From Burkholderia multivorans ATCC BAA-247 (GTDB lineage: Bacteria; Pseudomonadota; Gammaproteobacteria; Burkholderiales; Burkholderiaceae): a DNA stretch of 64,000 nt. Made by a program: the position numbers and the translations under genes. This document shows, one piece after another, positions 2,722 to 44,115 of this stretch; position 1 is the first letter of the stretch; every line of letters begins with the position of its first letter. The notes below the pieces were generated by a model that saw only the letters and a list, made by a program, of their open reading frames with translations, did no database searches and was not told the DNA's origin. The stretch covers positions 1,364,001 to 1,428,000 of the forward strand of contig NZ_CP009831.1 of the NCBI RefSeq assembly GCF_000959525.1, given 5' to 3'.

Positions 2722-2799
2722 CCGTTCCACGCATTCGCGGACCGGCGCCGGAAGACGTCGGCCCGCTACGTTGTCGATCGCTTTTTCAAAGGAGAAATC

Positions 2800-3099
2800 A
2801 TGGCGCTCTACGTGATGGCCTCGCTGTTTCCGAAACCCGAACACGCGCAAGCCGTCGAGGCCGAACTGCGCAGCATGGTCGCGAAGACGCGGACCGAACC
2901 GGGCAATCGCCAATACGACCTGTTCCGCGAAGAGGGCGGCTCGCCGAACCTGCATCTGTTCGAAGTCTACGACGACCAGGCCGCGTTCGACGCGCACCTC
3001 GCGAGCCCGTACTTCGTCGCGTTCCGCGACAAATCCGCCGACTGGTTCGCGTCGCCGCCGGTGATCAAGGTGCTGAGCGGCATCGACGTCGCCGACTGA
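2800..3099 (+). CDS. Antibiotic-biosynthesis-monooxygenase (ABM) fold protein
   Basis: This 99-aa protein has the small ferredoxin-like ABM fold: an early hydrophobic strand, the EPGNRQYDLFRE segment and the LFEVYDDQAAFDAHLASPYF signature. YgiN-type quinol monooxygenases and many uncharacterised dimeric proteins share this fold. AAAGGAG is placed well before the ATG. It sits 78 bp after the oxidoreductase and before the molybdenum hydroxylase genes, so it may belong to the same electrophile or quinone response. The catalytic role is not established by sequence alone. Confidence 0.88.
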   Translation: MALYVMASLFPKPEHAQAVEAELRSMVAKTRTEPGNRQYDLFREEGGSPNLHLFEVYDDQAAFDAHLASPYFVAFRDKSADWFASPPVIKVLSGIDVAD

Positions 3100-3222
3100 C
3101 GTATCGCGTACCGCGCCCCGTCGCGACGGGGCCGCATGCAGCCGCCGCGCCCGCGCGCGGCGGCGACGACGACACGGCGCATCCAGCGCGCCGCTTCCCC
3201 ACACACCGGCCCCGGAGGCTGA

Positions 3223-3678
3223 ATGGTCACTCTGAACATCAACGGCGAGACCCGCACGGTCGACGCCCCCGACGACATGCCCTTGCTCTGGGTGCTGCGC
3301 GATCTGGTCGGCCTGACCGGCACCAAGTTCGGCTGCGGCATCGCGCAGTGCGGTGCGTGCACCGTGCATCTCGACGGCGTCGCCGCGCGCTCGTGCGTGT
3401 TGCCGGTCGCGGCGGTCGCGGGCCGCAGGATCACGACGATCGAAGCCGTCGGCGCGACGCCGGCCGGCCAAAAGGTCCAGCAGGCATGGCGCGCACTCGA
3501 CGTCGTGCAGTGCGGCTACTGCCAGTCCGGCCAGGTGATGGCGGCCGCTGCGCTGATTGCGTCGAACCCGAAGCCGAGCGACGCCGACATCGACGCCGCC
3601 ATGGCCGGCAACATCTGCCGCTGCGGCACGTACCATCGGATTCGCGCGGCGATCAAGCAAGCCGCGCAGGAGGCCTGA
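3223..3678 (+). CDS. (2Fe-2S) subunit of a xanthine-dehydrogenase-family molybdenum hydroxylase (IorA-like)
   Basis: This 151-aa small subunit carries two [2Fe-2S] clusters. The plant-ferredoxin-type N-terminal cluster uses C38, C43, C46 and C58, and the C-terminal helical domain uses C97, C100, C132 and C134 (QCGYC and CRCG motifs). All eight ligands are present. It passes electrons from the Moco subunit encoded immediately downstream toward the cytochrome subunit. The start is supported by GGAGG 8 bases upstream. The best relatives are IorA/isoquinoline 1-oxidoreductase-type and aldehyde oxidoreductase subunits. The substrate of this enzyme cannot be read from the sequence. Confidence 0.93.
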
Positions 3679-3679
3679 C

Positions 3680-5899
3680 ATGTCGCGCGGACTGATCGAA
3701 GCAGGCCATGCCGGCGCCGCCATGTCGCGCCGTTCGTTTCTGCGCTTCGGCATGTCGCTCGGCGCGGCGGCCGGCGGCGGACTGCTGCTCGGCTTCAGCC
3801 TGCCGGCCGCGGGCGACGATACGCGGCGCTCGGTGATCGGCGGCGACGCGGACGAACCCGCGCGGGCGGGCGTGTTCGCGCCCAACGCATTCGTGCAGAT
3901 CGACCGCAGCGGCCGCGTCACGCTCGTGATGCCGAAGGTCGAGATGGGGCAGGGCGTTTACACCGCGCTGCCGATGCTGATCGCGGAAGAGCTCGAGGTG
4001 CCGCTGTCGAGCGTGACGCTGGATCATGCGCCGCCGAACGAAAAGCTGTTCCTCGATCCGCTGCTCGGCGGCCAGTTGACCGGCGGCTCGACGTCGGTGC
4101 GCTACGCATGGGAGCCGCTGCGTCGCGCCGGTGCGACCGCGCGCGTGCTGCTGGTGTCGGCGGCCGCGAAGCAATGGAACGTCGACCCGGCTGCCTGTCA
4201 CGCGGAGAACGGCGAGGTGCGCCATCCGCCGAGCGGTCGCCGCGCATCGTACGGCGAGCTCGCGGACGCGGCTGCAAAGCTGCCGGTGCCGACAGACGTC
4301 GCGCTGAAAAAGCCCGAGCAGTTCAAGCTGATCGGCACGCCCGCGAAGCGCCTCGATTCGCCGGAGAAAGTCGACGGTGTCGCGCAGTTCGGACTCGACG
4401 TGCGGCTGCCCGGGATGCTCTATGCGGTGATCGTGAACAGCCCGGTGTTCGGCGGCACCGTTGCGAGCGTTGACGATACGGCCGCGAAGAAGATTCCCGG
4501 CGTGCGTCAGATCGTGCGCGTCGACGACGCCGTCGCGGTGGTCGGCGATCACACGTGGGCGGCCAAGCGCGGCGCATCGGCGCTGGTCGTCAAATGGAAC
4601 GAAGGCGCGAACGCCAACGTGTCGACGAAGGATCTGTTCGCCGATCTCGCGCAGGCTGCCGCGAACGGCAAGGGCGCGGTCGCTCGCAAGGACGGCGACG
4701 TCGACCATGCCTTCTCGAACGCGAAGACGCGCGTGGACGCGGTGTACGAACAGCCGCTGCTCGCGCACGCGACGATGGAACCCGTGAACTGTACCGTGCA
4801 CGTGCGCAGCGACGCCTGCGAGGTGTGGGTCGGCACGCAGGTGCCGACGCGCGCCCGCGACACCGCGCAGCGGATCACCGGCCTGCCTGCCGAGCGCATC
4901 GTCGTGCACAACCACCTGCTTGGCGGCGGCTTCGGCCGCCGGCTCGAAACCGACATGATCGGCCAGGCCGTGAAGATCGGCAAACAGGTCGGCGCGCCGG
5001 TGAAGGTCGTGTGGACGCGCGAAGAGGACATCCAGCACGACATGTACCGGCCGTGCTACCACGACCGGATCTCGGCCGCGCTCGACGCGAACGGCAAGCC
5101 GATCGCATGGCGGCACCGGATCGTCGGCTCGTCGATCCTCGCGCGCTTCGCGCCGCCGGCTTTCAAGGACGGTGTCGATCCCGACGCGGTGGAGGTGGCG
5201 ATCGATCTGCCGTACGACGTCCCGAATCAGCTGATCGACTACGTGCGACAGGAGCCGCGCCATGTGCCGACCGCGTTCTGGCGCGGCGTCGGGCCGACGC
5301 GCAGCACCTTCGTCGTCGAAAGCTTCATCGACGAACTCGCCGCGCAGACCAAAACCGACCCGGTCCAGTACCGGCGCGCGCTGCTCGACAAGACGCCGCG
5401 TGCGCGCAACGTGCTCGACATCGCGACGAAAGCGGCCGGGTGGGGCGCGGCCTTGCCGCAAGGGCAGGGCCGCGGCGTCTCGGTGATGCATGCGTTCGGC
5501 AGCTTCTTCGCGATCGTCGCGGACGTCGCGGTCGACGACGGTGAAGTGCGCGTGACGCGCGTCGTCTGCGCGGTCGACTGCGGGATGACCGTGAACCCGA
5601 ACACGATCGAGGCGCAGGTGCAAGGCGGCATCATCTTCGGCATCACGGGCGCGCTGTACGGCGAAGTGACGATCGAGAACGGCCGCGTGACGCAGCGCAA
5701 CTTCACCGACTATCGCGTGCTGCGGATCAACGAGACGCCGCCGATCGACGTGCATATCGTGAAGAGCGGCGAAGCGCCGGGCGGGATCGGCGAGCCCGGC
5801 ACCGCGGCGACGGCCGCGGCCGTCGCGAACGCGATCTTCGCGGCGACCGGCAAGCGGCTGCGCAAGCTGCCGATCGGCAACCAGCTGAAAACGGCCTGA
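3680..5899 (+). CDS. Molybdopterin-binding large subunit of a xanthine-dehydrogenase-family hydroxylase (IorB-like)
   Basis: This 739-aa periplasmic Moco subunit starts with a twin-arginine signal (SRRSFLRFGMSLGAA, about residues 16-30), so it is probably exported folded. Family signatures are VEMGQGVYTALP near the N-terminus, LLGGGFGRRLE in the middle, and C-terminal GGIGEPGTAAT with the catalytic Glu. The start ATG at 3680 follows the small-subunit stop by one base, indicating tight coupling. With the small subunit and the three-haem cytochrome behind it, this forms a membrane-linked aldehyde or N-heterocycle oxidising system that delivers electrons to the respiratory chain. Both aldehyde and isoquinoline-like substrates are possible. 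Confidence 0.92.
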   Translation: MSRGLIEAGHAGAAMSRRSFLRFGMSLGAAAGGGLLLGFSLPAAGDDTRRSVIGGDADEPARAGVFAPNAFVQIDRSGRVTLVMPKVEMGQGVYTALPMLIAEELEVPLSSVTLDHAPPNEKLFLDPLLGGQLTGGSTSVRYAWEPLRRAGATARVLLVSAAAKQWNVDPAACHAENGEVRHPPSGRRASYGELADAAAKLPVPTDVALKKPEQFKLIGTPAKRLDSPEKVDGVAQFGLDVRLPGMLYAVIVNSPVFGGTVASVDDTAAKKIPGVRQIVRVDDAVAVVGDHTWAAKRGASALVVKWNEGANANVSTKDLFADLAQAAANGKGAVARKDGDVDHAFSNAKTRVDAVYEQPLLAHATMEPVNCTVHVRSDACEVWVGTQVPTRARDTAQRITGLPAERIVVHNHLLGGGFGRRLETDMIGQAVKIGKQVGAPVKVVWTREEDIQHDMYRPCYHDRISAALDANGKPIAWRHRIVGSSILARFAPPAFKDGVDPDAVEVAIDLPYDVPNQLIDYVRQEPRHVPTAFWRGVGPTRSTFVVESFIDELAAQTKTDPVQYRRALLDKTPRARNVLDIATKAAGWGAALPQGQGRGVSVMHAFGSFFAIVADVAVDDGEVRVTRVVCAVDCGMTVNPNTIEAQVQGGIIFGITGALYGEVTIENGRVTQRNFTDYRVLRINETPPIDVHIVKSGEAPGGIGEPGTAATAAAVANAIFAATGKRLRKLPIGNQLKTA

Positions 5900-30665: not shown

Positions 30666-31700
30666 ATGACCGCCTCCTCCCCGTTCCGCAATCCCATCCA
30701 CTGCGAAATCGATCTCGACGCGCCCGGCAAGCAGGCCGGCTATCTGCGTCTTCCGCATTCCGTGCATCGCTCGGCATACGGCTGGCTGCCGATTCCGATC
30801 GCGTCGATCCGCAACGGCGACGGCCCTGTCGCGCTCGTGATGGCCGGCAATCACGGCGACGAATATGAAGGGCAGATCATCGTGTCGCAGCTGATGCGCG
30901 AGATCGAGCCCGACATGATTAGCGGCCAGCTGATCCTGCTGCCGATGGCGAACTTTCCGGCCGCCGATGCGGGGCTGCGCGTGTCGCCGCTCGACAACGG
31001 CAACCTGAACCGCAGCTTTCCCGGCGATCCGGCCGGCACGCCGACGCAGATGATCGCGCATTACATCGAGCACGCGCTGCTGTCGCGCGCGCAATACCTC
31101 GTCGACCTGCATTCGGGCGGCAGCTCGCTGCTGTATAGCGGCGGCAACATGCTCGCGATCGATCCGCTCGACGCGGACGAGGCCGCGAAGCTCCACGGGC
31201 TGCTCGTCGCGTTCGGGCTTCCGAACGCGCTGCTGCATGGGCCGAACCCCGTGCATTCGGCGTCGGCCGCGCGCCGGCAAGGCGCAATCTCGATCGTCAC
31301 CGAACTCGGCGGCGCCGGCATGGCGGATCCGTCGCTGATCCGGCTCGGCCGTCACGGGCTGCTGCACTATCTCGGCTATATCGGCCTGCTGCACGGCAAG
31401 CTCGTGCCGGATGCGCCACCGACCGTCACGCGCTTTTTGCGGGTCGACGGCGACCGGCATTTCGTCTACGCCTACGAACGCGGGCTCTACGAACCGCTCG
31501 TCGAACTCGGCGACCGCGTGACGGCCGGGCAGCCGGCCGCCTGGGTCCACTTCCCCGATACGCCGCTGCGCGAGCCCGTGCTGCATCGGTTCAAAGGCGA
31601 CGGCGAAGTCGTCTGCAAGCGCGTGCCCGCGCAAGTGCAGCGCGGCGACTGCCTGTTTCAGCTCGCGGAACCCACCGACCCGCCGAGCATCGGCCGATAG
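30666..31700 (+). CDS. Succinylglutamate desuccinylase/aspartoacylase family hydrolase
   Basis: This 344-aa zinc-dependent M14-like deacylase has the metal-binding motif GNHGDEYEGQ (His and Glu, about residues 60-69). The later YLVDLHSGGSS segment supplies the second His, and a Glu (TELGG) near residue 216 is the likely catalytic base. Members remove acyl groups from amino acids such as succinylglutamate, N-acetylaspartate or ectoine precursors. The C-terminal domain (about 260-344) is a beta-rich lid. It is monocistronic here, and the substrate is undetermined. Confidence 0.88.
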   Translation: MTASSPFRNPIHCEIDLDAPGKQAGYLRLPHSVHRSAYGWLPIPIASIRNGDGPVALVMAGNHGDEYEGQIIVSQLMREIEPDMISGQLILLPMANFPAADAGLRVSPLDNGNLNRSFPGDPAGTPTQMIAHYIEHALLSRAQYLVDLHSGGSSLLYSGGNMLAIDPLDADEAAKLHGLLVAFGLPNALLHGPNPVHSASAARRQGAISIVTELGGAGMADPSLIRLGRHGLLHYLGYIGLLHGKLVPDAPPTVTRFLRVDGDRHFVYAYERGLYEPLVELGDRVTAGQPAAWVHFPDTPLREPVLHRFKGDGEVVCKRVPAQVQRGDCLFQLAEPTDPPSIGR

Positions 31701-31776
31701 GGCCGGTTCCGGACCTCTCCTTTTCCCGTGCTGTCTGCCCTGTATGGCGGACGGCACGCGTGCGCCATTAACCAAC

Positions 31777-31804
31777 TTGACAAATTAACCTACTTGGTTA
31801 CACT
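31777..31804 (+). promoter_or_regulatory. mqsRA promoter with embedded operator palindrome
   Basis: TTGACA (31777-31782), a 16-bp spacer and TACACT (31799-31804) form a strong sigma-70 promoter. The spacer holds the inverted repeat TAACC-TACTT-GGTTA (31786-31800), which has the form of the AACCT/AGGTT palindrome bound by MqsA antitoxins. Autorepression of the toxin-antitoxin operon is therefore likely. Confidence 0.75.
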
Positions 31805-31819
31805 CGCGCATGGATACCT

Positions 31820-32114
31820 ATGGAAAAGCGAACGCCGCACTGCAAGCTGCCGCGTCAAGGCGCTGATCGAAGCCGGCAAGGTCCGCCTGACCGCAAGCGC
31901 CGTCATCGGCGCCCGCCTGATGGGCTTCACCGAAGCGGAAGCGATCGACGTGGTGAGGGCGCTGACACCGTTCGAATTCCACAAGAGCATGACGACCTAC
32001 GCCGACCACACGATCTGGCAGGACGTCTACCGGCCTTGCACGATGCGCGGCGACGTGTACCTGAAACTGACCGTCGTCGACGATGTGCTGATCGTGTCTT
32101 TCAAGGAGCGATAA
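31820..32114 (+). pseudogene. mqsR: mqsR toxin gene with a frameshift near the start
   Basis: The canonical MqsR N-terminus MEKRTPHCKL is encoded from the ATG at 31820, but the rest of the protein lies in another frame. That part runs from RVKALIEAGKVR to KSMTTYADHTIWQDVYRP and VLIVSFKER, ending at 32114. The break is between 31849 and 31851: after CTG only one base precedes CGC-GTC, as if two bases of a Ser codon (LSRVK in relatives) were lost. From the 31820 ATG no functional toxin is made. An open frame in the second phase extends upstream to a GTG at 31728, but that lies before the promoter and encodes unrelated residues. MqsR is a GCU-preferring mRNA interferase. Sequencing error or programmed frameshifting are alternatives. 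Confidence 0.78.
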
Positions 32115-32115
32115 A

Positions 32116-32517
32116 ATGAAATGTCCTGCATGCGGTGCTGCCACGCTGGTCCGCGACACGCGCGACATCCCGTACACCTACAAGGGCGAATCGACCGTGA
32201 TCCCGCACATCACCGGCGAGTTTTGCCCCGCGTGCGGCGAGTCGGTGCTCGACGTCGACGAGGCGACCCGTTTCGGCGAAGCGGTGTCGGCGTTCAACCG
32301 GCAGGTGAACGCGACACTCGTCGATCCGAAGTTCATTGCGACGGTACGCAAGAAGCTGAAGCTCGATCAGCGCGAGGCGGCCGAGATTTTCGGCGGCGGC
32401 GTCAACGCGTTTTCCCGCTACGAGACCGGCAAGACCAATCCACCGCTGGCGCTCGTGAAGCTGCTGAAGATTCTCGACCGTCATCCCGATCTGCTCGACG
32501 AAGTGCGTGCGGCATAA
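32116..32517 (+). CDS. mqsA: MqsA-type antitoxin
   Basis: This 133-aa antitoxin has an N-terminal zinc-binding domain (CPAC at about 3-6 and CPAC at about 37-40) that binds the toxin. A C-terminal Xre helix-turn-helix (LDQREAAEIFGGGVNAFSRYETGK) binds the operator at 31786-31800. It begins 1 bp after the mqsR stop. It appears fully intact although the toxin gene is frameshifted, so it may persist as a free-standing regulator. Confidence 0.92.
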   Translation: MKCPACGAATLVRDTRDIPYTYKGESTVIPHITGEFCPACGESVLDVDEATRFGEAVSAFNRQVNATLVDPKFIATVRKKLKLDQREAAEIFGGGVNAFSRYETGKTNPPLALVKLLKILDRHPDLLDEVRAA

Positions 32518-32799: not shown

Positions 32800-33366
32800 A
32801 TGCCCATGGCCACGACCGACCGCATCATCGACACGACCCCGCTCGACGCGCGTGCCCAGCCGCTGATCGACGCGCTGATCGACGAATACGCCACGCGCTA
32901 CGACGCGTACCGACCCGACAGCCGCGCGTCCGCGCGCGAAGAACTCGCACGCTATCCGGCCGAGCTGTTCGCGCCGCCCGAAGGCGCGTTCGTGCTGCTG
33001 CTGCGCAACGGCGAGACGATCGGCGGCGGCGCATTCAAGCGCTACGACGCACAGACGGCCGAACTCAAACGCATCTGGACGCGCGCCGACCAGCGCCGCC
33101 AAGGGCTCGCGCGCCGCATCGTCGACGCGCTCGAGCAGCGCGCGCGCCGGCAAGGCTATCGCCGCGTGTATCTGACGACCGGCTTTCGTCAGCCCGAAGC
33201 GTGGGCGCTGTACGACCGCGCGGGTTATGCGCGTCTGTTCGATGCATCGATCGATCCCGAAGTGCTTTTCCATCTGCGCTTCGGCAAGGATCTCGTCGAT
33301 CCCGCGCGCACGTCGACGCTCGCCGATCTGTGGGCGCCCGCGCCCGAAGCGGCCCTGCCGCGCTGA
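32800..33366 (+). CDS. GNAT family N-acetyltransferase, first gene of an S-alkylcysteine-type cluster
   Basis: This 188-aa acetyltransferase has the GNAT acetyl-CoA loop TRADQRRQGLARRIVDALEQ (about residues 89-108) and the C-terminal strand RVYLTTGFRQPEAWALYDRAGY. It is followed at 65 bp by a solute-binding protein gene, then two flavin monooxygenases and an ABC transporter. In Bacillus subtilis the equivalent acetyltransferase (SnaA, formerly YtmI) N-acetylates S-alkylcysteines before monooxygenase cleavage, so the same role is proposed here from context. Two start codons, 32800 and 32806, are possible, and neither has a strong ribosome-binding site. Confidence 0.88.
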   Translation: MPMATTDRIIDTTPLDARAQPLIDALIDEYATRYDAYRPDSRASAREELARYPAELFAPPEGAFVLLLRNGETIGGGAFKRYDAQTAELKRIWTRADQRRQGLARRIVDALEQRARRQGYRRVYLTTGFRQPEAWALYDRAGYARLFDASIDPEVLFHLRFGKDLVDPARTSTLADLWAPAPEAALPR

Positions 33367-33431
33367 CGGTCGGCCGCGGTCCACGCGCGCATCGCATTCC
33401 CCGCTTTCCACGACAACGACAGGACGTCTTC

Positions 33432-34373
33432 ATGCCATACCGCGTTCGCCGCGCTTCGCGCGCCATCGTCACCCTCGCCGCCGCGCTCGTGGGCCTGACG
33501 GCCTTCGCCGCCGCGGCCGCCACGTTCGACCTGAGCCCCGAGCAGCGCGGCCGTCCGCGCGGCGTCGCCGATCCGGCGGTCGAGCGCGCGGTGCCCGCGT
33601 CGTTCCGGTTCGCCGAACCCGACACGCTGACGATCGGCATCGCGCCGAGCCTGCCGCCGATCAGTACGTATGCGACGGACGCGCGCACGGTCGTCGGCTT
33701 CGATGCGGACGTCGGCCAGCTCGTCGCCGACACGCTCGGACGCCGGCTGAAGATCGTCGCGCTCGCGTGGGCCGACTGGCCGCTCGCGCTCGAATCGGGC
33801 AAGGTCGACGCCGTGATCGCGAACGTGACCGTCACCGAGGAACGCAAGCAGAAGTTCGATTTCTCGACGTACCGCAAGGATCAGCTCGGCTTCTACGTGC
33901 GCAACGACAGCGCGATCCGGGCGATCCGCGAACCGAAGGACGTCGCCGGGCTGCGCATCGTGACCGACGCCGGCACCAATCAGGAAAAGATCCTGCTCGC
34001 GTGGGATCGCGACAACGTCGCGCACGGGCTCAAGCCCGTGCAGGTGCAGTACTACGACGATCACGCGATGCGGATCGTCGCCGTGCAGTCCGGTCGCGCG
34101 GACGCGGTCTTCAGCGTGAATTCGGTGCTCGCGTATCAGAGCGCGCAGCAGGGCAAGACGCGGCTCGTCGGTGCGATCAGCGGCGGCTGGCCGCGCACGG
34201 CCGACATCGCGATCGCGACGCGCAAGGGCAGCGGGCTCGCGCAGCCGCTGACGGCCGCACTGAATACGCTGATCGCGAACGGCCGCTACGCGCAGATCCT
34301 CGATCGCTGGAACCTCGCGTCCGAAGCGATCGACACGTCGCGCACGAATCCGCCCGGCCTGCCGAAGAGCTGA
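33432..34373 (+). CDS. ABC transporter solute-binding protein 1 (polar amino acid family)
   Basis: This 313-aa periplasmic binding protein of the type-2, family-3 amino-acid group has a signal peptide ending near AAAA. Segments such as TIGIAPSLPPISTYATDART, ALAWADWPLALESGKVDAVI and GLRIVTDAGTNQEKILL are shared with a second paralogue at 38723 in the same cluster. It starts with AGGA 8 bases upstream of the ATG. It likely binds a sulfur-containing amino acid derivative for the fused permease-ATPase at 36900. Confidence 0.9.
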   Translation: MPYRVRRASRAIVTLAAALVGLTAFAAAAATFDLSPEQRGRPRGVADPAVERAVPASFRFAEPDTLTIGIAPSLPPISTYATDARTVVGFDADVGQLVADTLGRRLKIVALAWADWPLALESGKVDAVIANVTVTEERKQKFDFSTYRKDQLGFYVRNDSAIRAIREPKDVAGLRIVTDAGTNQEKILLAWDRDNVAHGLKPVQVQYYDDHAMRIVAVQSGRADAVFSVNSVLAYQSAQQGKTRLVGAISGGWPRTADIAIATRKGSGLAQPLTAALNTLIANGRYAQILDRWNLASEAIDTSRTNPPGLPKS

Positions 34374-34404
34374 GCGCCGCCTCCTTTCACGCACGTCGTT
34401 CACC

Positions 34405-35466
34405 ATGTCCTATTCGCTTTCGCTGCTCGACAAAAGCCCGATCGCCGACGGCGGCAGCGCCGCCGACGCGCTGCGCTTCACGACGACGCTCGCGCGGCGC
34501 GCCGAGCAGCTCGGCTACGCGCGGTTCTGGGTCGCCGAGCATCACGGCGCGCCGGGCTTCGCGAGCTCGGCACCGGAGATCGTCGTCGCCCACCTGCTCG
34601 CGCAGACGTCGCGCATCCGCGTCGGTTCGGGCGGCGTGATGCTGCAGCACTACAGTCCGTTCAAGGTCGCCGAGACGTTCCGGCTGCTCGCGGCCCTCGC
34701 ACCCGGCCGCGTCGATCTCGGCATCGGCAAGGCGCCGGGCGGACTGCCGCTGACCACGCGCGCGCTGCAGTGGTATCACGACAAGGCCGCGAAACCCGAC
34801 TTCGCGGGCCAGCTCGCCGCGCTCGACGCGTTTCTCGGCTGGGGCGTCGACGAGGATCACGCACTCGCGGGCGCGATCGCGCTGCCCGAACCGCCGCAGC
34901 CGCCGCAGCGCATCCTGCTCGGCGGATCGCCGGACAGCGGCGCGCTCGCCGCACGCCACGGCTGGCACTTCTGCTATGCCGGCCATTTCAACGGCGACGA
35001 GGCGAACCTCGAACGCTCGCTCGAGGCCTACCGAAGCGCAGGCGGCACGAAGCCGCTCGTCGCGCTGTACGCGGTCGCGGCCGAGACGCGCGATGCGGCC
35101 GAGCGGCTGACCGGGTCGCTGAAGATCTTCCGGCTGCGGCTCGCGAGCGGTCAGAGCTTCAACCTCGCGAGCGCGCAGGCGGCCGCCGAATTCGCGCGGC
35201 AAAGCGGCGCGTCCGACTACCGCATCGACGAACTGCGCCCCGCCGTGCTCGCCGATACGCCCGAGCGCGTGCATCGCGCGCTCGACGCGCTGAGCCGGCG
35301 GCTCGGCGTCGACGAGTTCGTGATCGATGCGCCGACCGCCGACCATGCGGCGCGACTCGCGTCGGTCGAATGGCTCGGCGGCGTGCAGACGACCACGCCC
35401 GCGCACATCGCACGCGCCGCGACGCACGGCGCCCCTTCCCTCGACCGCGACACGCCACACCCATGA
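34405..35466 (+). CDS. LLM-class flavin-dependent monooxygenase 1 (YtmO/MsnO8-like)
   Basis: This 353-aa bacterial-luciferase-like enzyme uses reduced FMN and O2. Signatures are SLLDKSPIADGGSAADALRF at the N-terminus, RFWVAEHHGAPGFASSAPEI (about residues 35-54), VGSGGVMLQHYSPFKVAE and DLGIGKAPGG. These are typical of the MsnO8/YtmO branch rather than of alkanesulfonate monooxygenase. It precedes a second, different LLM enzyme with a 4-bp overlap. By analogy with Bacillus CmoO (YtmO) it could cleave the C-S bond of N-acetyl-S-alkylcysteine; this substrate is inference. The reductase supplying FMNH2 is not in the cluster. Confidence 0.9.
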   Translation: MSYSLSLLDKSPIADGGSAADALRFTTTLARRAEQLGYARFWVAEHHGAPGFASSAPEIVVAHLLAQTSRIRVGSGGVMLQHYSPFKVAETFRLLAALAPGRVDLGIGKAPGGLPLTTRALQWYHDKAAKPDFAGQLAALDAFLGWGVDEDHALAGAIALPEPPQPPQRILLGGSPDSGALAARHGWHFCYAGHFNGDEANLERSLEAYRSAGGTKPLVALYAVAAETRDAAERLTGSLKIFRLRLASGQSFNLASAQAAAEFARQSGASDYRIDELRPAVLADTPERVHRALDALSRRLGVDEFVIDAPTADHAARLASVEWLGGVQTTTPAHIARAATHGAPSLDRDTPHP

Positions 35467-36815
35467 CGACTCCACGCCCGATTCCCTTCGGCCTGATGCT
35501 GCAAGGCGCAGGCAGCCACATGAACGCATGGCGGCATCCGAGCAACCCGCCGGATGCGAGCATCAACGTCGATTTCGCGATCGGCATCGCGCGCAAGGCC
35601 GAGGCGGCCGGGATCGCGTTCGCGTTCGTCGCGGACGGCCTCTACATCAACGACAAGTCGATCCCGCACTTCCTGAATCGCTTCGAGCCGCTGACGCTGC
35701 TGTCCGCGCTCGCGGCCGCGACGACGAAGATCGGGCTTGCCGGCACGATCTCGACGTCGTACAGCGAGCCGTTCACGGTCGCGCGCCAGCTCGCGTCGCT
35801 CGACGCGATCAGCGGCGGCCGCGCCGGCTGGAACGTCGTGACGACGCCGCTCGAAGGCACCGCGAAGAACTTCGGCAAGACGCATCCCGATCACGCGCTG
35901 CGCTACGAGATCGCCGACGAATTCCTGAGCGTCGTGCAGGGCCTGTGGGACAGCTGGGACGACGACGCATTCGTGCGCGATCGTGAGACCGGGCGCTTCT
36001 TCGATCGCACGAAGCTGCATACGCTCGATCATCGCGGCCGCTTCTTCCAGGTCGCCGGACCGCTGAACATTCAGCGCTCGCGCCAGGGGCAGCCGGTGAT
36101 CTTTCAGGCCGGCTCGTCCGACGACGGCATCGCGCTCGCCGGCAAGTACGCGGACGCGGTATTCACGCATTCGCCGTCGCTCGACGAAACCGCGGCCTTT
36201 TCGCGGCGCGTGAAGCAGAGCGCGATCGACCACGGCCGTCGGCCCGACGACGTGAAGATCTTCCCCGGTATCGGGCCGATCGTCGGGCGCACCGCCGCCG
36301 AAGCCGAAGACAAATACCGCGCGATCCGCGATCTGTTGACGATCGACGACGCGCTCGCCTATCTCGGCCGCTATTTCGACCACCACGACTTCACGCAATA
36401 CGCGCTCGACGCGCCGTTCCCCGAGCTCGGCGACATCGGCCGCAACAGCTTCCGTTCGACGACCGACCGGATCAAGGCCGACGCGAAACGGCACGGGCTG
36501 ACGCTGCGCGAAACCGCGCTCGCCGTCGCGACGCCGCGCCCGAACTTCATCGGCACCGCCGAGCACGTCGCCGACGAACTGATCCGCTGGTTCGACGCGG
36601 GCGCGGCCGACGGTTTCATTCTCGGCTTTCCGGTGCAGGCGCAAGGCGTCGACGATTTCGTCGAACTCGTGATTCCGGCGCTCGAAGCGCGCGGCCGCTA
36701 TCGGCGCGAGCTGCCCGGCAGCACGCTGCGCGATCACCTCGGCCTGCCGCGCAAGGCGAGCCGCTACGCGCCGCCCGATGCGACGCGCGCGCCGGCCGAT
36801 GAAGCGCATGCCTAG
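35463..36815 (+). CDS. LLM-class flavin-dependent monooxygenase 2 (NtaA/YtnJ/DszA family)
   Basis: This 450-aa protein belongs to the nitrilotriacetate monooxygenase branch (NtaA, SnaA, DszA, Bacillus YtnJ/CmoJ). Recognisable stretches are AWRHPSNPPDASINVDFAIG and FVADGLYI near the start, then SEPFTVARQLASLDAISGGR, AGWNVVTTPLEG and VFQAGSSDDGIALAGKYAD-like sequence. Such two-component enzymes oxidise C-N or C-S bonds with FMNH2. The start ATG overlaps the preceding stop. A pair of LLM enzymes of exactly these two branches with an acetyltransferase and an amino-acid-type transporter is the ytm/ytn pattern. Confidence 0.9.
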   Translation: MTTPRPIPFGLMLQGAGSHMNAWRHPSNPPDASINVDFAIGIARKAEAAGIAFAFVADGLYINDKSIPHFLNRFEPLTLLSALAAATTKIGLAGTISTSYSEPFTVARQLASLDAISGGRAGWNVVTTPLEGTAKNFGKTHPDHALRYEIADEFLSVVQGLWDSWDDDAFVRDRETGRFFDRTKLHTLDHRGRFFQVAGPLNIQRSRQGQPVIFQAGSSDDGIALAGKYADAVFTHSPSLDETAAFSRRVKQSAIDHGRRPDDVKIFPGIGPIVGRTAAEAEDKYRAIRDLLTIDDALAYLGRYFDHHDFTQYALDAPFPELGDIGRNSFRSTTDRIKADAKRHGLTLRETALAVATPRPNFIGTAEHVADELIRWFDAGAADGFILGFPVQAQGVDDFVELVIPALEARGRYRRELPGSTLRDHLGLPRKASRYAPPDATRAPADEAHA

Positions 36816-36899
36816 TACGCCGCGTGCGTCGCGCGCCGTCATGCGTGCCGAGCAGCCGACGTACCGATTCGACGACCCATTCGAGGACCCTGCATCGAC

Positions 36900-38681
36900 A
36901 TGAGCGATACGACCCATCTCGGCGGCGCCGTGCCGCCGCTGCCTTCCAGCGCGCCGCGCGACACCGGCGCCGGCGCGCGCGTGCGCATCGTGCCCGCGCG
37001 CCACCGCTCGAGCCTCGCGGGCACCGTGCTCGCGGTCGCGTTGATCGCGCTCGCGCTGCACTCGATCCTGACGAACCCGCGATGGGGCTGGCCGGTGTTC
37101 GCCGAATGGTTCCTGTCGCCGCCCGTGCTGTCCGGCCTGGCACGCACGCTCGTGCTGACGCTGCTCGGCGCCGTGTTCGGGTTCGCGCTCGGCGCATTGG
37201 TCGCCTTTGCGCGGCTGTCGCGCTCGCGGCTGCTATCGGCCAGCGCATGGGCGTTCGTCTGGCTGTTCCGCTCGATCCCGCTGATCGTGCTGCTGCTGAT
37301 CCTGAACAACCTCGGCTACCTGTACGAGCACGTGCGGCTCGGCGTGCCGTTCACCGGCATCGTATGGTTCGACGCGCCGACGACGGACCTGATCAGTCCG
37401 TTCGCGGCGGCCGTGCTCGGTCTCACGCTGAATCACGCGGCGTTTTCGGCGGAAGTGATCCGCGGCGGCATTCTTTCGGTCGATCAGGGGCAGCTCGAAG
37501 CGGCCGCCGCACTCGGCCTGCCGCACGGCCGGCAGACCGCGCGCATCGTGCTGCCGCAGGCGATGCGTGCGATCCTGCCGACCGCGTTCAACGATCTGAT
37601 CGTGCTCGCGAAAGGCACGTCGATGGTGTACGTGCTCGCGATGCCCGAGCTGTTCTACACGGTTCAGGTCATCTATCGCCGCAATCTCGAAGTGATTCCG
37701 CTGCTGATGGTCGCGACGGTCTGGTATCTGATCATCCTGACCGTGCTGTCGGCGATCCAGGTGCAGGTCGAGCGCCACTACGCGCGCGGCGCGCTGCGCA
37801 ACCCGCCGCCGTCGGCGCTGACGTTCGTGCTCGCACGCGCGGGCGCGCTGTGGCGGCGCGTCGTCGCGCGCCGCAGCGTGCCGGCCGCCGGCGCCCGCGA
37901 CGACGCGGTCGTGCCGCAAGTCGGCGGCGAAGTGACCGTGCATCGCGTATCGAAACGCTTCGGCACGCAGCGCGTGCTCGACGACGTGTCGTTCGTCGCG
38001 CCGCGCGGCAGCGTGACCGTGATCGTCGGCCCGTCCGGCTCGGGCAAGTCGACGCTGCTGCGCACGATCAATCATCTCGAACGCGTCGACGACGGCATCA
38101 TCGACATCGACGGCGAACTGATCGGCTATCGCCGCGACGGCGACGTGCTGCACGAACTGAAGGAGCGCGACGTGCTGAAGCGTCGCAGCGGGGTCGGGAT
38201 GGTGTTCCAGACCTTCAACCTGTTCCCGCATCTGACGGTGCTCGAGAATCTGATCGAAGCGCCGCTCGCGCTCGGCACCGCGACGCGCGAGGCGGCGGAA
38301 CGGACCGCGCGCGCGTTGCTCGCGCGTGTCGGCCTCGCCGACAAGGCCGACGCGTATCCGCGCCAGTTGTCGGGCGGCCAGCAGCAACGCGTCGCGATCG
38401 CGCGGGCGCTCGCGCTGCGACCGAAGGTGCTGCTGTTCGACGAGCCGACGTCCGCGCTCGATCCGGAACTCGTCAACGAAGTGCTCGACGTGATCAAGGA
38501 ACTTGCGCGCTCCGGCACGACGCTCGTGATCGTCACGCACGAAATCGGCTTCGCGCGCGAAGTCGCCGACAACGTGCTGTTCATGGAACGCGGACGCATC
38601 GTCGAAGCGGGACCGCCGGCGGTCGTGCTCGACGCGCCCGCGCATCCGCGCACGCGCGCGTTCCTGTCGCACGTGCTGTAA
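36900..38681 (+). CDS. Fused amino-acid-type ABC permease and ATPase
   Basis: This 593-aa protein joins two usual subunits. The N-terminal permease (about residues 40-300) has five or six helices and the His/Gln permease signature (HAAFSAEVIRGGILSVDQGQ, then LEAAAALGLPHGRQTARIVL). The C-terminal ATPase (about 340-593) has Walker A GPSGSGKSTLLR, signature LSGGQQQRVAIARAL and Walker B LLFDEPTSALD. In most bacteria these are separate genes, so the fusion fixes their 1:1 ratio. Two solute-binding proteins flank it in the operon, which suggests they share this translocator. Confidence 0.92.
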   Translation: MSDTTHLGGAVPPLPSSAPRDTGAGARVRIVPARHRSSLAGTVLAVALIALALHSILTNPRWGWPVFAEWFLSPPVLSGLARTLVLTLLGAVFGFALGALVAFARLSRSRLLSASAWAFVWLFRSIPLIVLLLILNNLGYLYEHVRLGVPFTGIVWFDAPTTDLISPFAAAVLGLTLNHAAFSAEVIRGGILSVDQGQLEAAAALGLPHGRQTARIVLPQAMRAILPTAFNDLIVLAKGTSMVYVLAMPELFYTVQVIYRRNLEVIPLLMVATVWYLIILTVLSAIQVQVERHYARGALRNPPPSALTFVLARAGALWRRVVARRSVPAAGARDDAVVPQVGGEVTVHRVSKRFGTQRVLDDVSFVAPRGSVTVIVGPSGSGKSTLLRTINHLERVDDGIIDIDGELIGYRRDGDVLHELKERDVLKRRSGVGMVFQTFNLFPHLTVLENLIEAPLALGTATREAAERTARALLARVGLADKADAYPRQLSGGQQQRVAIARALALRPKVLLFDEPTSALDPELVNEVLDVIKELARSGTTLVIVTHEIGFAREVADNVLFMERGRIVEAGPPAVVLDAPAHPRTRAFLSHVL

Positions 38682-38722
38682 CGCCTGCGGCGCGCGATCC
38701 ATTCGCTATCGAACCCGACGAC

Positions 38723-39661
38723 ATGACGATCGACCGACGACAGTTCATCGCCGCCGCACTGGCCGCGGCATCCGGCTGCGCGCCGTGGCGCGCGGCGCAC
38801 GCGGTGGCCGCGACCGCGGACCTCGATCCACGCCAGCCCGGCCGCGTGCGCGCGCCGCGCGACGACGCCGCGATCCGCGCGGCAAGTACCTACCGATGGG
38901 TGCGCGACGGCGCATTCACGGTCGCGATTTCGCCGCATGCGCCGCCCGTGTCGACCTACGCGACCGATGCGCGTACGGTCGTCGGCGCCGATCCCGACTA
39001 TGCGCAGCTCGTCGCCGACGCGCTCGGCCGCACGCTGGTGCTGGCGCCCATCGCGTGGGCCGACTGGCCGCTCGGCCTCACGTCGGGGAAATACGATGCG
39101 GTGATCTCGAACGTCGGCGTGACCGAAAAGCGCAAGGAGAAGTACGACTTCACGACGTACCGGCTCGGGCTGCACGGCTTCTATGTGCGCACCGACAGCC
39201 CGATCCGCGCGATCGCCGAACCGAAGGACGTCGCCGGGCTGCGCATCATCACCGGCGCGGGCACGAGCCAGGAGCACATCCTGCTCGAATGGAGCCGGCG
39301 CAACGTCGCGCACGGCCTGAAGGCGACCGAGCTGCTGTACTTCGACGACGATGCGGCCGCGCGCGTCGCGCTGCTGTCGGGCCGTGCGGACGCCGAGCTG
39401 AATCCGAACGCATCGCTCGCCTACGAAGCCGCGCGCACGGGCAAGATCCGGCGCGTCGGCGTCGTCAATGCGGGCTGGCCGGCGAATGCGGACGTCGCGA
39501 TCGCGACGCGTCGCGGCAGCGGGCTTGCGCCCGCGCTGACGCTTGCGACCAACACGCTGATCGCGAGCGGCCGCTACGGACAGGCGCTTGCGCGATGGGG
39601 GCTGCAAAGCGAAGCGATCGCGCGTGCCGAAACCAATCCGCCGGGACTGCCGTCGTACTGA
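38723..39661 (+). CDS. ABC transporter solute-binding protein 2, paralogue of protein 1
   Basis: This 312-aa periplasmic binding protein has a short signal that begins MTIDRRQFIAAALAAASGCA, with RR (Tat-like) and Cys-19 as possible features. Its body parallels the protein at 33432: PPVSTYATDARTVVG, IAWADWPLGLTSGKYDAVIS, EPKDVAGLRIITGAGTSQEH and a closing TNPPGLP. It is a duplicated and diverged binding protein, probably for a related ligand. It is the last gene of the cluster, 41 bp after the permease-ATPase. Confidence 0.9.
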   Translation: MTIDRRQFIAAALAAASGCAPWRAAHAVAATADLDPRQPGRVRAPRDDAAIRAASTYRWVRDGAFTVAISPHAPPVSTYATDARTVVGADPDYAQLVADALGRTLVLAPIAWADWPLGLTSGKYDAVISNVGVTEKRKEKYDFTTYRLGLHGFYVRTDSPIRAIAEPKDVAGLRIITGAGTSQEHILLEWSRRNVAHGLKATELLYFDDDAAARVALLSGRADAELNPNASLAYEAARTGKIRRVGVVNAGWPANADVAIATRRGSGLAPALTLATNTLIASGRYGQALARWGLQSEAIARAETNPPGLPSY

Positions 39662-41844: not shown

Positions 41845-41931
41845 CACGATCTCGATCGTCCGATGCCGCCTGACCGGCGTGGCGGCCGAATCGAGCGATG
41901 TTCCAGCGGGTCGCTGCGCGCCGCAAACGCA

Positions 41932-41948
41932 ACAATATATCGTATCGA
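41932..41948. promoter_or_regulatory. Zur-like operator 2 (degenerate)
   Basis: ACAATATATCGTATCGA agrees with operator 1 at 12 of 17 positions and lies about 74 bp before the chosen receptor start. Two spaced boxes could allow cooperative repression. Confidence 0.45.
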
Positions 41949-42021
41949 CATGAAACCGATTCGCGGCGCGCCGGGCTTGCCCCCGATCCGATTCCGACAG
42001 ACTTCAACCGACTCATCGACC

Positions 42022-44115
42022 ATGCGCGACCTCCCACGTCTTCCACGTCTTCCGCTCCGCCCACTCTCGCCCGTTTCGCTGATGGCGCTCGCCGCCCTTG
42101 CCCATGCGCAAACCGACACGTCCGCAATCGCTACGTCGCCGTCCTCGAACGGCGCGCCGCTCGCGCCGATTTTCGTCACCGCGAATCCGCTCGGCGACGC
42201 CGAGCTGATCGCGCCCACCGCGCAGCTGTCGGGCGATGCGCTGCTGCGCCGCCAGGCCGATTCGCTTGGCGAAACGCTGAACGGCCTGCCCGGCGTATCG
42301 ACCACCACGTACGGGCCGATGGTCGGCCGCCCGATCGTGCGCGGCATGGACGGCGACCGGATCCGGCTGCTGCAGAACGGCGTGGCTGCCTACGATGCGT
42401 CGTCGCTGTCGTACGACCACGCCGTGCCGGAAGACCCGCTGTCGATCGAGCGCGTCGAGATCGTGCGCGGCCCGGCGGCGCTGCTGTACGGCGGCAACGC
42501 GATCGGCGGCGTCGTGAACACGATCGACAACCGGATCCCGCGCGAGGCGATCGATGGCCCGACCGGTGCGCTCGACGTCCGCTACGGCGGCGCGAACGCC
42601 ACGCGCGCGGGCGCCGCGCAGGTCGAAGGCGGCAACGGCCGCTTCGCGTTCCACGTCGATGCATTCGATCGCGAAACCGGCAAGCTGCGGATTCCCGGCT
42701 ATGCGCGCAGCGATACGCAACGCGCGCTCGACGGCCCCGACACGCCGCAGCCGGTCGGCAGCGTGCCGAACAGCGACGGCCGCGTGCACGGCGGCGCGGT
42801 CGGCGCGTCGTACACGTGGGCCGACGGGTTCGCGGGCCTGTCGTACAGCGGCTACGAATCGAACTACGGATCGGTCGCCGAAGACGACGTGCGGCTGCGC
42901 ATGCGGCAGGAGCGTCTCGCCTTCGCGTCGGAGGCGCGCAATCTGCCCGGGCCGTTTTCGACGCTGAAATTCGACTTCGCGTACACCGATTACCGCCACA
43001 AGGAAGTCGACAACGGCGAAACCGCGACGACGTTCCGCAATCGCGGCTACGAGGCGCGCCTCGAGGCGCGGCACCGCAAGATCGGGCCGCTCGAAGGCGC
43101 GATCGGCGTACAGTTCGGCGGCAACACGTTTTCCGCGCTCGGCGACGAAACGCTCGTTCCGTCGACGCGCACCAACAGCGTCGCGCTGTTCGGCCTCGAG
43201 GAATGGCAGGTCGATCCGGCGCTGAAGCTGAGCCTCGGCGGACGCATCGAGCATGTCAACGTCGATCCCGATCCGGCCGGCGTCGAGAAATTCGCGGGCG
43301 CGCAATCGCGCACGTTCAACGCAGGCAGCGTGGCGGCCGGCGCGCTGTTTTCGCTGACACCCACCTGGTCGATCGCCGCCAACGTCGCTTACACCGAACG
43401 CGCGCCGACGTTCTACGAGCTCTATTCGAACGGTCCGCACGATGCGACCGGGCAGTTCCTGATCGGCAATCCGAACGCGTCGAAGGAAAAAGCCGTGTCG
43501 ACCGACCTGTCGCTGCGCTATGCGAGCGGACCGAATCGCGGCAGTGTCGGCGTGTTCTACAACCGCTTTTCGAACTATCTGGCCGAATACGCGACCGGCC
43601 GCATCGTCGACGGCGACGGCGATCCGGTGCCGCGCGGCACCGACGACGCGCTCGCCGAGGCCGTCTATCGCGGCGTGCGCGCGGAGTTCTACGGCGTCGA
43701 GCTGGACGGCAAGTATCGCGTCTATGCACACAGCGGCCACACGGTCGACCTCGAGCTGACGGCCGACTATACGCATGCGCGCAACGTCGACACCGGCGAG
43801 CCGCTGCCGCGCATCGCACCGCTGCGCGCGACGCTCGCGGCCGACTACGGCTACGGCCCCTTCGGCGCACGCGCGCAGCTCACGCACGCGTGGTCGCAGC
43901 ATCGCGTGCCCGCCGACGATGAACCGACCGCCGGCTATACCTCGCTCGGCGTGATGCTGACATACAAGTTCCGCGTCGGCGCAACGCACTGGCTCGCGTA
44001 TCTGCGCGGCGACAACCTGACGAACCAGGACATCCGCTACGCGACCTCGGTGGTGCGCGGTTTCGCACCGCAAGGCGGACGCAGCGTGATGGCCGGATTG
44101 CGCACGACGTTCTGA
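42022..44115 (+). CDS. TonB-dependent receptor, ZnuD-like
   Basis: This outer-membrane receptor is about 697 aa from this start, with signal peptide ending LAHAQ. A TonB-box region (APIFVTANPLGD) and a plug domain follow (about residues 45-160; LGETLNGLPGVSTTTYGPMV, then VEIVRGPAALLYGGNAIGGVVN). The 22-strand barrel ends in GLRTTF. It lacks features of siderophore receptors with large plugs and resembles zinc-uptake receptors such as ZnuD, which fits the Zur-like boxes upstream. No good ribosome-binding site marks the start. An in-frame ATG at 41950 is an alternative but would add 24 residues ahead of the signal. Confidence 0.85.
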   Translation: MRDLPRLPRLPLRPLSPVSLMALAALAHAQTDTSAIATSPSSNGAPLAPIFVTANPLGDAELIAPTAQLSGDALLRRQADSLGETLNGLPGVSTTTYGPMVGRPIVRGMDGDRIRLLQNGVAAYDASSLSYDHAVPEDPLSIERVEIVRGPAALLYGGNAIGGVVNTIDNRIPREAIDGPTGALDVRYGGANATRAGAAQVEGGNGRFAFHVDAFDRETGKLRIPGYARSDTQRALDGPDTPQPVGSVPNSDGRVHGGAVGASYTWADGFAGLSYSGYESNYGSVAEDDVRLRMRQERLAFASEARNLPGPFSTLKFDFAYTDYRHKEVDNGETATTFRNRGYEARLEARHRKIGPLEGAIGVQFGGNTFSALGDETLVPSTRTNSVALFGLEEWQVDPALKLSLGGRIEHVNVDPDPAGVEKFAGAQSRTFNAGSVAAGALFSLTPTWSIAANVAYTERAPTFYELYSNGPHDATGQFLIGNPNASKEKAVSTDLSLRYASGPNRGSVGVFYNRFSNYLAEYATGRIVDGDGDPVPRGTDDALAEAVYRGVRAEFYGVELDGKYRVYAHSGHTVDLELTADYTHARNVDTGEPLPRIAPLRATLAADYGYGPFGARAQLTHAWSQHRVPADDEPTAGYTSLGVMLTYKFRVGATHWLAYLRGDNLTNQDIRYATSVVRGFAPQGGRSVMAGLRTTF

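Follow-up and report, generated by a model that had tools for sequence, protein, structure and literature searches.

Organization of the locus

A gene cluster resembling the ytm/ytn (ytmI) operon of Bacillus subtilis is located at positions 32800-39661 of a 64-kb stretch of Burkholderia multivorans ATCC BAA-247 DNA (contig NZ_CP009831.1, positions 1,364,001 to 1,428,000). This whole stretch is referred to as the window, and coordinates given without a locus name refer to it. The source replicon is a contig of 2.34 Mb in a genome of 6.32 Mb and three contigs. The six genes of the cluster are intact and contiguous, have no internal stop codons and are all on the + strand. They encode, in order, a GNAT acetyltransferase, a solute-binding protein (SBP1), two luciferase-like monooxygenases (LLM1 and LLM2), a fused permease-ATPase and a second solute-binding protein (SBP2), with successive intergenic gaps of 65, 31, -4, 84 and 41 bases. 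A first-pass annotation had described six genes of these families on one strand, separated by short gaps or overlaps. The coordinates, strand and gaps confirm the arrangement, and the families agree with those assigned here using Pfam and NCBIfam profiles.

The GNAT acetyltransferase (32800..33366, + strand; PF00583, 66 bits) is proposed to be an S-substituted-cysteine N-acetyltransferase. SBP1 (33432..34373, +) and its paralogue SBP2 (38723..39661, +) both have the conserved domain PF00497 (SBP_bac_3; 98.4 and 72.2 bits, respectively), and SBP2 is approximately 60% identical to the SBP1 proteins of near Burkholderia loci. LLM1 (34405..35466, +) is a CmoO/YtmO-like monooxygenase and proposed sulfoxidase that matches TIGR03558 (MsnO8 family; 339.9 bits, cut-off 166.95). 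LLM2 (35463..36815, +) matches TIGR03860 (NtaA/DmoA family; 529.4 bits, cut-off 279.7) and is the proposed C-S cleaving enzyme. The fused ATP-binding cassette (ABC) protein (36900..38681, +; 593 aa) consists of an N-terminal permease (BPD_transp_1, PF00528, residues 94-293) and a C-terminal ATPase (ABC_tran, PF00005, residues 360-518) with Walker A, LSGGQ and Walker B motifs at residues 377, 490 and 510. The importer is of the polar-amino-acid type with family 3 binding proteins (PF00497, PF00528, PF00005).

These six genes may not be the whole functional unit, because a deacylase gene upstream of them (30666..31700, +) appears to belong to it. The encoded protein (344 aa) is a member of the AstE/AspA superfamily (PF24827; 123.1 bits, cut-off 25) and is proposed to be an N-acetylcysteine deacetylase. 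It is DoeB-like, but its identification as the DoeB of ectoine degradation was rejected: its score against the DoeB profile TIGR02994 (233.6 bits) is below the cut-off of 402.7, and the genome encodes its own DoeB elsewhere (C1:160016-161017; 559.6 bits), to which the window protein is 35% identical. Residues H63, E66, H149 and E213, which we take to be metal-binding or catalytic residues, are invariant across 24 aligned rows.

Identity of the two monooxygenases

The classification of LLM2 as a CmoJ/YtnJ-type enzyme, and not one of the NtaA, DszA or DmoA type, is supported by both similarity scores and phylogeny. Among PDB chains, LLM2 scores 629 bits against 3sdo, 543 against YtnJ (the CmoJ of B. 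subtilis) and 299 against 7e36, with lower scores for DszA/BdsA (275), DmoA (204) and the EDTA (ethylenediaminetetraacetate) monooxygenase EmoA (197). It is 55% identical to the CmoJ copy of Listeria, whose ytmI operon was used throughout as the Firmicute yardstick, standing in for that of B. subtilis. A protein from a B. multivorans record that is 99.1% identical to LLM2 over 447 residues is 57.2% identical to YtnJ over query residues 3-424. In a maximum likelihood tree of 38 rows, in which 25 of the 80 related loci described below were sampled, LLM2 falls in a 31-row clade (support 100/99) that also contains YtnJ, the copies from Listeria and Niallia, and the proteins of the proteobacterial clusters. 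Within this clade, 26 proteobacterial cluster proteins (100/100) and three Firmicute proteins (100/98) form subgroups, and the second-copy proteins of loci L029 and L100 are placed between them with weak support. The CmoJ clade excludes two paralogues from the same genome (L004 and L005) that score above the TIGR03860 cut-off. LLM2 had been described beforehand as NtaA/YtnJ-type; the YtnJ half of that description stands on the 543-bit score, the identity to the Listeria copy and the clade, while the NtaA half is contradicted by the score against EmoA. Grouping of the LLM proteins with alkanesulfonate or nitrilotriacetate enzymes, named beforehand as part of what would refute the initial reading, did not occur.

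The L004 gene adjoins genes resembling a MetNQ transporter, and L005 adjoins an SfnB-looking gene.

LLM1 is 37% identical to Listeria YtmO over 329 aa and is encoded directly upstream of the CmoJ-type LLM2. Together with the TIGR03558 match, this agrees with its earlier description as a YtmO/MsnO8-type protein. A 31-row tree does not separate the cluster proteins of Firmicutes from those of Proteobacteria, and in it MsnO8 and a paralogue from the same genome (L002) pair apart from them (94/99), on long branches whose join was flagged by the program as possibly false. The name CmoO-like, and not CmoO, is given to LLM1 on position and family.

Conservation of the cluster

A protein scan of genome contigs identified at least 579 relatives of LLM2, and the best 80 were used as loci for comparison. 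In 78 of these, CmoJ is preceded by an LLM1 homologue in the same orientation no more than 1 kb away, and a GNAT homologue is present in an equal number. The permease-ATPase fusion occurs in 74/80 loci. Binding proteins are likewise encoded in 74/80, and two or more of them in 56/80. Some of the absences are due to contig ends (L041, L059). This grouping of genes is not a matter of chance, because 71 of the 80 loci have all four kinds of gene (LLM1, GNAT, fusion and one or more binding proteins) alongside that for the LLM2 homologue. Because 74 loci carry the fusion, it is the usual proteobacterial form of the transporter. It is thus neither a Burkholderia simplification nor otherwise peculiar to that genus; the first-pass annotation had taken this proteobacterial version to be simplified by the fusion.

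Several of these loci carry additional genes. A third LLM gene (L090:16156-17205 and its homologues) is found in 42/80 loci and is not in the window cluster; in several Paraburkholderia a second GNAT gene comes with it. A TonB-dependent-receptor-like gene is located beside SBP1 in L028 (6330-8828), L032, L034 and L029 (reversed), and in the first three it sits between SBP1 and CmoO. Its position suggests outer-membrane uptake of the substrate. A TonB receptor encoded in the window (41863-44115) was rejected as the counterpart of the L028 receptor (27% identity over 127 aa). Downstream of the cluster in L013 (14299-16528) and similar Burkholderia loci are SsuD/SsuA-like LLM and periplasmic binding-protein genes on the opposite strand, the look of which suggests sulfonate use; no member of the SsuA-like binding-protein family was found in the window stretch.

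Gene content also varies by loss and by duplication. In L022 (B. anthina) CmoO is missing between SBP1 and CmoJ and the rest is kept, making it a natural CmoO-less cluster. A B. cenocepacia plasmid (L105, NZ_CP091015.1), typed as conjugative (MOBH, MPF_T), carries GNAT, SBP, CmoO, CmoJ and the fusion; the stretch examined has neither the deacylase nor SBP2. A similar second copy is found in B. latens (L016). L065, labelled Bacillus subtilis SK7B5, has a Stenotrophomonas-like layout and 75% identity to the window LLM2, and its label looks wrong. L027, labelled B. multivorans WS-FJ9, has an LLM2 of 83% identity, compared with 99.1% in another B. multivorans record, and one of the two labels may be wrong.

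The upstream deacylase

The first-pass annotation had concluded that the cluster lacks a deacetylase. The N-acetylcysteine deacetylases shown in B. subtilis (ScmP, YhaA and YtnL) are all M20 proteins (PMC12757645). With respect to this family the conclusion holds: tblastn with the M20 protein of the L048 cluster, which matches the YxeP/ScmP chain 1ysj (248 bits), gave nothing in the window at E <= 1e-4. It may not hold with respect to the AstE/AspA deacylase, which is encoded just upstream and is a candidate for this step.

The two kinds of gene have a complementary distribution. An M20-type gene directly follows CmoJ in 43 of the 80 loci, and 19 other loci, without an M20 match, have an AstE/AspA-family gene upstream of GNAT on the same strand (gaps of 262-5136 bases). 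No locus has both. Judged by record labels, the deacylase is found in 19 and M20 in none of the 24 Burkholderia and Paraburkholderia loci, whereas the 56 other loci contain M20 in 43 cases and the deacylase in none. Most likely the AstE/AspA deacylase replaces the M20 deacetylase in Burkholderia and Paraburkholderia, which would be a new element of this variant of the system.

The deacylase and CmoJ also tend to occur in the same genomes, as seen in three overlapping draws (Burkholderia, 61 genomes; the family, 120; Paraburkholderia [genus g20], 77). All 61 Burkholderia genomes have the deacylase (E <= 1e-100) and 57 have CmoJ (at least 76% identity). In 54 of these 57 the deacylase precedes CmoJ in the same orientation at a distance of up to 20 kb (up to 12 kb in 50). 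It is on another contig in two (G030, G033) and far off in one (G057). In the family draw the deacylase (E <= 1e-110) is present in 17/120 genomes and CmoJ (E <= 1e-190) in 16/120, all 16 being among the 17. In all five CmoJ genomes of this draw outside Burkholderia (G075, G079, G121, G163 and G165), the deacylase is encoded within 6 kb upstream of CmoJ and in the same orientation. Among the Paraburkholderia genomes, 21 have both genes, one has CmoJ only (G221), none has the deacylase only and 55 have neither (Fisher p 5.5e-18, ignoring phylogeny). In 15 of these 21 the deacylase precedes CmoJ in the same orientation by no more than 8.2 kb, and in three it is on a different contig. In the remaining three the distances are 42, 58 and 99 kb, and in the 99-kb case the deacylase is not upstream.

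In some genomes the deacylase and GNAT genes stay together when other parts of the cluster do not. In L100 (genome G163) the deacylase, GNAT and CmoJ genes are in a row, and the best CmoO-like protein (52% identity) is encoded approximately 13 kb from CmoJ. The same spacing, with no adjacent CmoO, is seen in G183. In G175 the deacylase adjoins GNAT and the pair is 99 kb from CmoJ. A further apparent pair away from CmoJ, in G222, was withdrawn: the contig stops just after SBP1, so the cluster may merely be broken in assembly, and the odds on the deacylase assignment drop slightly with the loss of this case. This contig (L109) has two further LLM genes (1939-4674 when the deacylase is on the + strand; 41% and 47% identity to CmoJ) directly upstream of the deacylase, GNAT and SBP1 genes.

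The interval between deacylase and GNAT is itself variable. In the window it is occupied by a toxin-antitoxin pair (31728-32517) that lies outside the pathway. This consists of an MqsR-like putative toxin (31728..32114, +; 128 aa), named by its sequence and its position one base before MqsA, and an MqsA antitoxin (32116..32517, +; PF15731, 213.5 bits; TIGR03830, 153.6 bits). MqsA was matched in only one of the 80 loci (L014). In L015, L017, L018, L020, L021 and L023 the interval carries differing inserted genes, which by the look of their sequences include an RdgC-like gene, a GntR/MocR-like regulator and a GNAT.

Proposed pathway

In the report on the B. subtilis pathway, S-benzylcysteine is the compound on which CmoO and CmoJ were shown to act, and the steps are acetylation, sulfoxidation by CmoO, cleavage by CmoJ to a sulfenic acid, reduction and deacetylation (PMC10863075). 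A second report calls it unclear what the ytn cluster acts on in nature (PMC12757645).

The proposed model for the B. multivorans cluster is as follows. S-alkylcysteines or their sulfoxides would be taken up through the fused ABC importer with its two binding proteins, and GNAT would acetylate the amino group of the substrate. By homology to B. subtilis CmoO, LLM1 would then form the sulfoxide, and LLM2, by homology to CmoJ, would cleave the C-S bond to give an aldehyde and N-acetylcysteine sulfenic acid. Enzymes encoded elsewhere would supply reduced flavin mononucleotide (FMNH2) and reduce the sulfenic acid. The FMN reductase, GNAT and glutaredoxin of Listeria and a rhizobial flavin-reductase-like protein all had no matches in the 64-kb window at E <= 1e-4, and with two flavin-reductase queries negative, the earlier statement that no such gene is in the cluster is upheld. 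Finally, N-acetylcysteine would be deacetylated to cysteine, in Burkholderia and Paraburkholderia most likely by the AstE/AspA deacylase (30666-31700).

The cluster as a whole probably serves the salvage of S-substituted cysteines in general. The evidence also leans, by a smaller degree, toward the deacylase being the deacetylase of this cluster. The complete model, a ytm/ytn-like thioether salvage system whose last step is carried out by an AstE/AspA deacylase, is given a probability of roughly 0.63.

Alternative explanations

The most serious alternative, although unlikely, is that the six genes salvage S-alkylcysteines while the deacylase is an unrelated, vertically inherited neighbour that acts on some other N-acyl amino acid, with N-acetylcysteine being deacetylated by a housekeeping M20 enzyme. 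Some observations favour this explanation, and these and others weigh against the proposed model. The source genome has five M20 matches, four of them at 54-56%, all outside the cluster. Neither an M20 nor a deacylase gene is found in 18 of the 80 loci (six Variovorax, five Burkholderia/Paraburkholderia, two Curvibacter, two Bosea and three others; one, L059, is a contig end), and the split between the two families follows lineage and may represent a single evolutionary change. In Burkholderia loci the deacylase is often separated from GNAT by 0.3 to 5 kb of other, variable sequence and is therefore often not in the operon of GNAT. The distance is 21 kb in G220, and in G194 and G234 GNAT lies close to CmoO, tens of kb from the deacylase. 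The deacylase may also have a function of its own, because G043, G055 and G066 have it while lacking, at the limits used, CmoJ, CmoO and GNAT, and because transporter-like genes adjoin it in L101 and L102. G043 has the deacylase in place between flanking genes matching those of the window, with the cluster absent. Both G043 and G055 lack CmoJ at E <= 1e-140, and G032 (82% complete) and G045 have the deacylase with only a CmoJ paralogue of approximately 60%. In L101, four transporter-like genes stop approximately 40 bases ahead of the deacylase, and in L102, which has no cluster, a binding-protein-like gene overlaps it; such neighbours would also suit another N-acyl substrate. The E-value limits were chosen by the analyst and the counts take no account of phylogeny. 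The window GNAT had no BLASTP match to the Listeria ytmI-operon GNAT at E <= 1e-3 (although both are GNAT proteins), which makes its substrate less certain and goes against the earlier view of it as the counterpart of SnaA. Lastly, gene content, homology, linkage and co-occurrence are what is observed, and from these we infer every enzymatic step and the substrate. What an unrelated neighbour does not account for well is the patchy but matched presence of the two genes in the 77 Paraburkholderia genomes (21 with both against one and none with a single gene, even where they are 42-99 kb apart in three), the deacylase-GNAT-CmoJ row of L100 and the pairing of deacylase with GNAT apart from CmoJ in G175.

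Two other explanations concern the substrate. An improbable one is that the cluster is an scm/yxe-type system in which LLM2 cleaves N-acetyl-S-(2-succino)cysteine directly. ScmK/YxeK is homologous to CmoJ (PMC10863075), and the deacylase-GNAT-LLM2 row of L100, with no adjacent CmoO, mirrors the ScmL-ScmK-ScmP set. S-(2-succino)cysteine had indeed been named beforehand as a ytm/ytn substrate; in B. subtilis, according to PMC9706529, this compound is instead handled by the separate scm/yxe operon. The scm locus as listed there has no CmoO-like gene, whereas such a gene lies upstream in the window and in 78/80 loci. LLM2 is also 55% identical to the ytmI-operon CmoJ. Far less probable still is the degradation of aminopolycarboxylates such as nitrilotriacetate or EDTA. 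This is suggested by the family name of TIGR03860 and by the best PDB chain, 3sdo, which is titled nitrilotriacetate monooxygenase; catabolism of the NtaA/EDTA type was rejected on the LLM2 scores (197 bits for EmoA vs. 543 for YtnJ), and the paralogues L004 and L005 are placed outside the CmoJ clade that contains LLM2. An acetyltransferase and a deacylase are not known to play a role in such a pathway.

The salvage model with an AstE/AspA deacylase is preferred, and a more tentative extension of it can be put forward. Burkholderia sensu lato might have rebuilt the acetylation-deacetylation steps, with a GNAT unlike that of ytmI and the AstE/AspA deacylase forming a protection/deprotection pair that replaces M20. 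The minimal deacylase-GNAT-CmoJ form, with no adjacent CmoO, might then take its sulfoxides ready-made, for example as the S-alk(en)ylcysteine sulfoxides that plants such as onion and crucifers contain. Aminoacylase 3 is the mammalian mercapturate deacylase, and the GNAT/deacylase pair would be its bacterial counterpart. If the minimal form acts in this way, plant-associated bacteria could use plant sulfur. The preferred model itself provides a testable enzyme inventory for the proteobacterial form of the pathway and a candidate for its apparently missing step, and it predicts a non-orthologous replacement of N-acetylcysteine deacetylase. If correct, it would give a role to an AstE/AspA-family gene present in all 61 Burkholderia genomes drawn, and it bears on sulfur acquisition by rhizosphere and onion-associated Burkholderia.

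Comparison with known systems

The Listeria record has the gene order LysR, SsuE-type FMN reductase, GNAT, binding protein, two permeases, ATPase, LLM, glutaredoxin and LLM, a layout that PMC9239247 describes for the ytmI operon, including ytmO and the cystine transporter TcyKLMN. Like the ytm/ytn operon, the window cluster has adjacent CmoO-like and CmoJ-type LLM genes, a GNAT gene and a polar-amino-acid ABC importer. Unlike the window, the Listeria operon has separate permeases and ATPase, an FMN reductase and a glutaredoxin gene between the LLM genes. In the window the two LLM genes overlap by 4 bases, leaving no glutaredoxin gene between them, and the Listeria glutaredoxin had no match in the window or in any of the 80 loci. 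The window binding proteins are only 21-22% identical to that of Listeria, and the Listeria GNAT matches only one of the 80 loci at E <= 1e-3. Because the other Listeria parts match so weakly or not at all, the LLM pair is seen as the conserved core, the other parts being apparently of the same type but not evidently the same genes. The initial description of the locus as ytm/ytn-like is thus kept for the CmoJ-type LLM2 behind a CmoO-like LLM1, the presence of a GNAT and the importer, but it does not extend to a match between the GNAT proteins. The ytn cluster of B. subtilis also differs in having an M20 deacetylase (PMC12757645) in place of the AstE/AspA deacylase of the window.

The scm/yxe operon shares the logic of acetylation, C-S cleavage and deacetylation and has a homologous LLM monooxygenase, but the window has a CmoO-like sulfoxidase candidate and an AstE/AspA deacylase where scm/yxe has the M20 protein ScmP. 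The N-acetyl-diaminobutyrate deacetylase of ectoine degradation (DoeB/EutE) belongs to the superfamily of the window deacylase and has similar metal-site-like residues; the two are set apart by their 35% identity within the source genome and by the TIGR02994 cut-off. Also close are the CmoO-CmoJ-M20-GNAT-fusion-SBP clusters of other Proteobacteria (Acidovorax, Stenotrophomonas, Rhizobium, Agrobacterium and others). Their LLM pair, GNAT, fusion and binding proteins correspond to those of the window, and they differ from it in the M20 gene between CmoJ and GNAT (43/80 loci) and the third LLM gene (42/80).

Worked out in B. subtilis, the CmoO/CmoJ pathway is described as widespread in soil bacteria (PMC10863075). 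Among the matches listed for open-licence literature on S-methylcysteine and Burkholderia, mercapturate deacetylation, DoeB, sulfur-limited LLM clusters and aspartoacylase, the titles and the openings of abstracts gave no report of this Burkholderia system. The pathway itself is already known, and the novel features of the Burkholderia cluster are the probable use of an AstE/AspA deacylase in the place of M20 and a GNAT that differs from the one in the ytmI operon.

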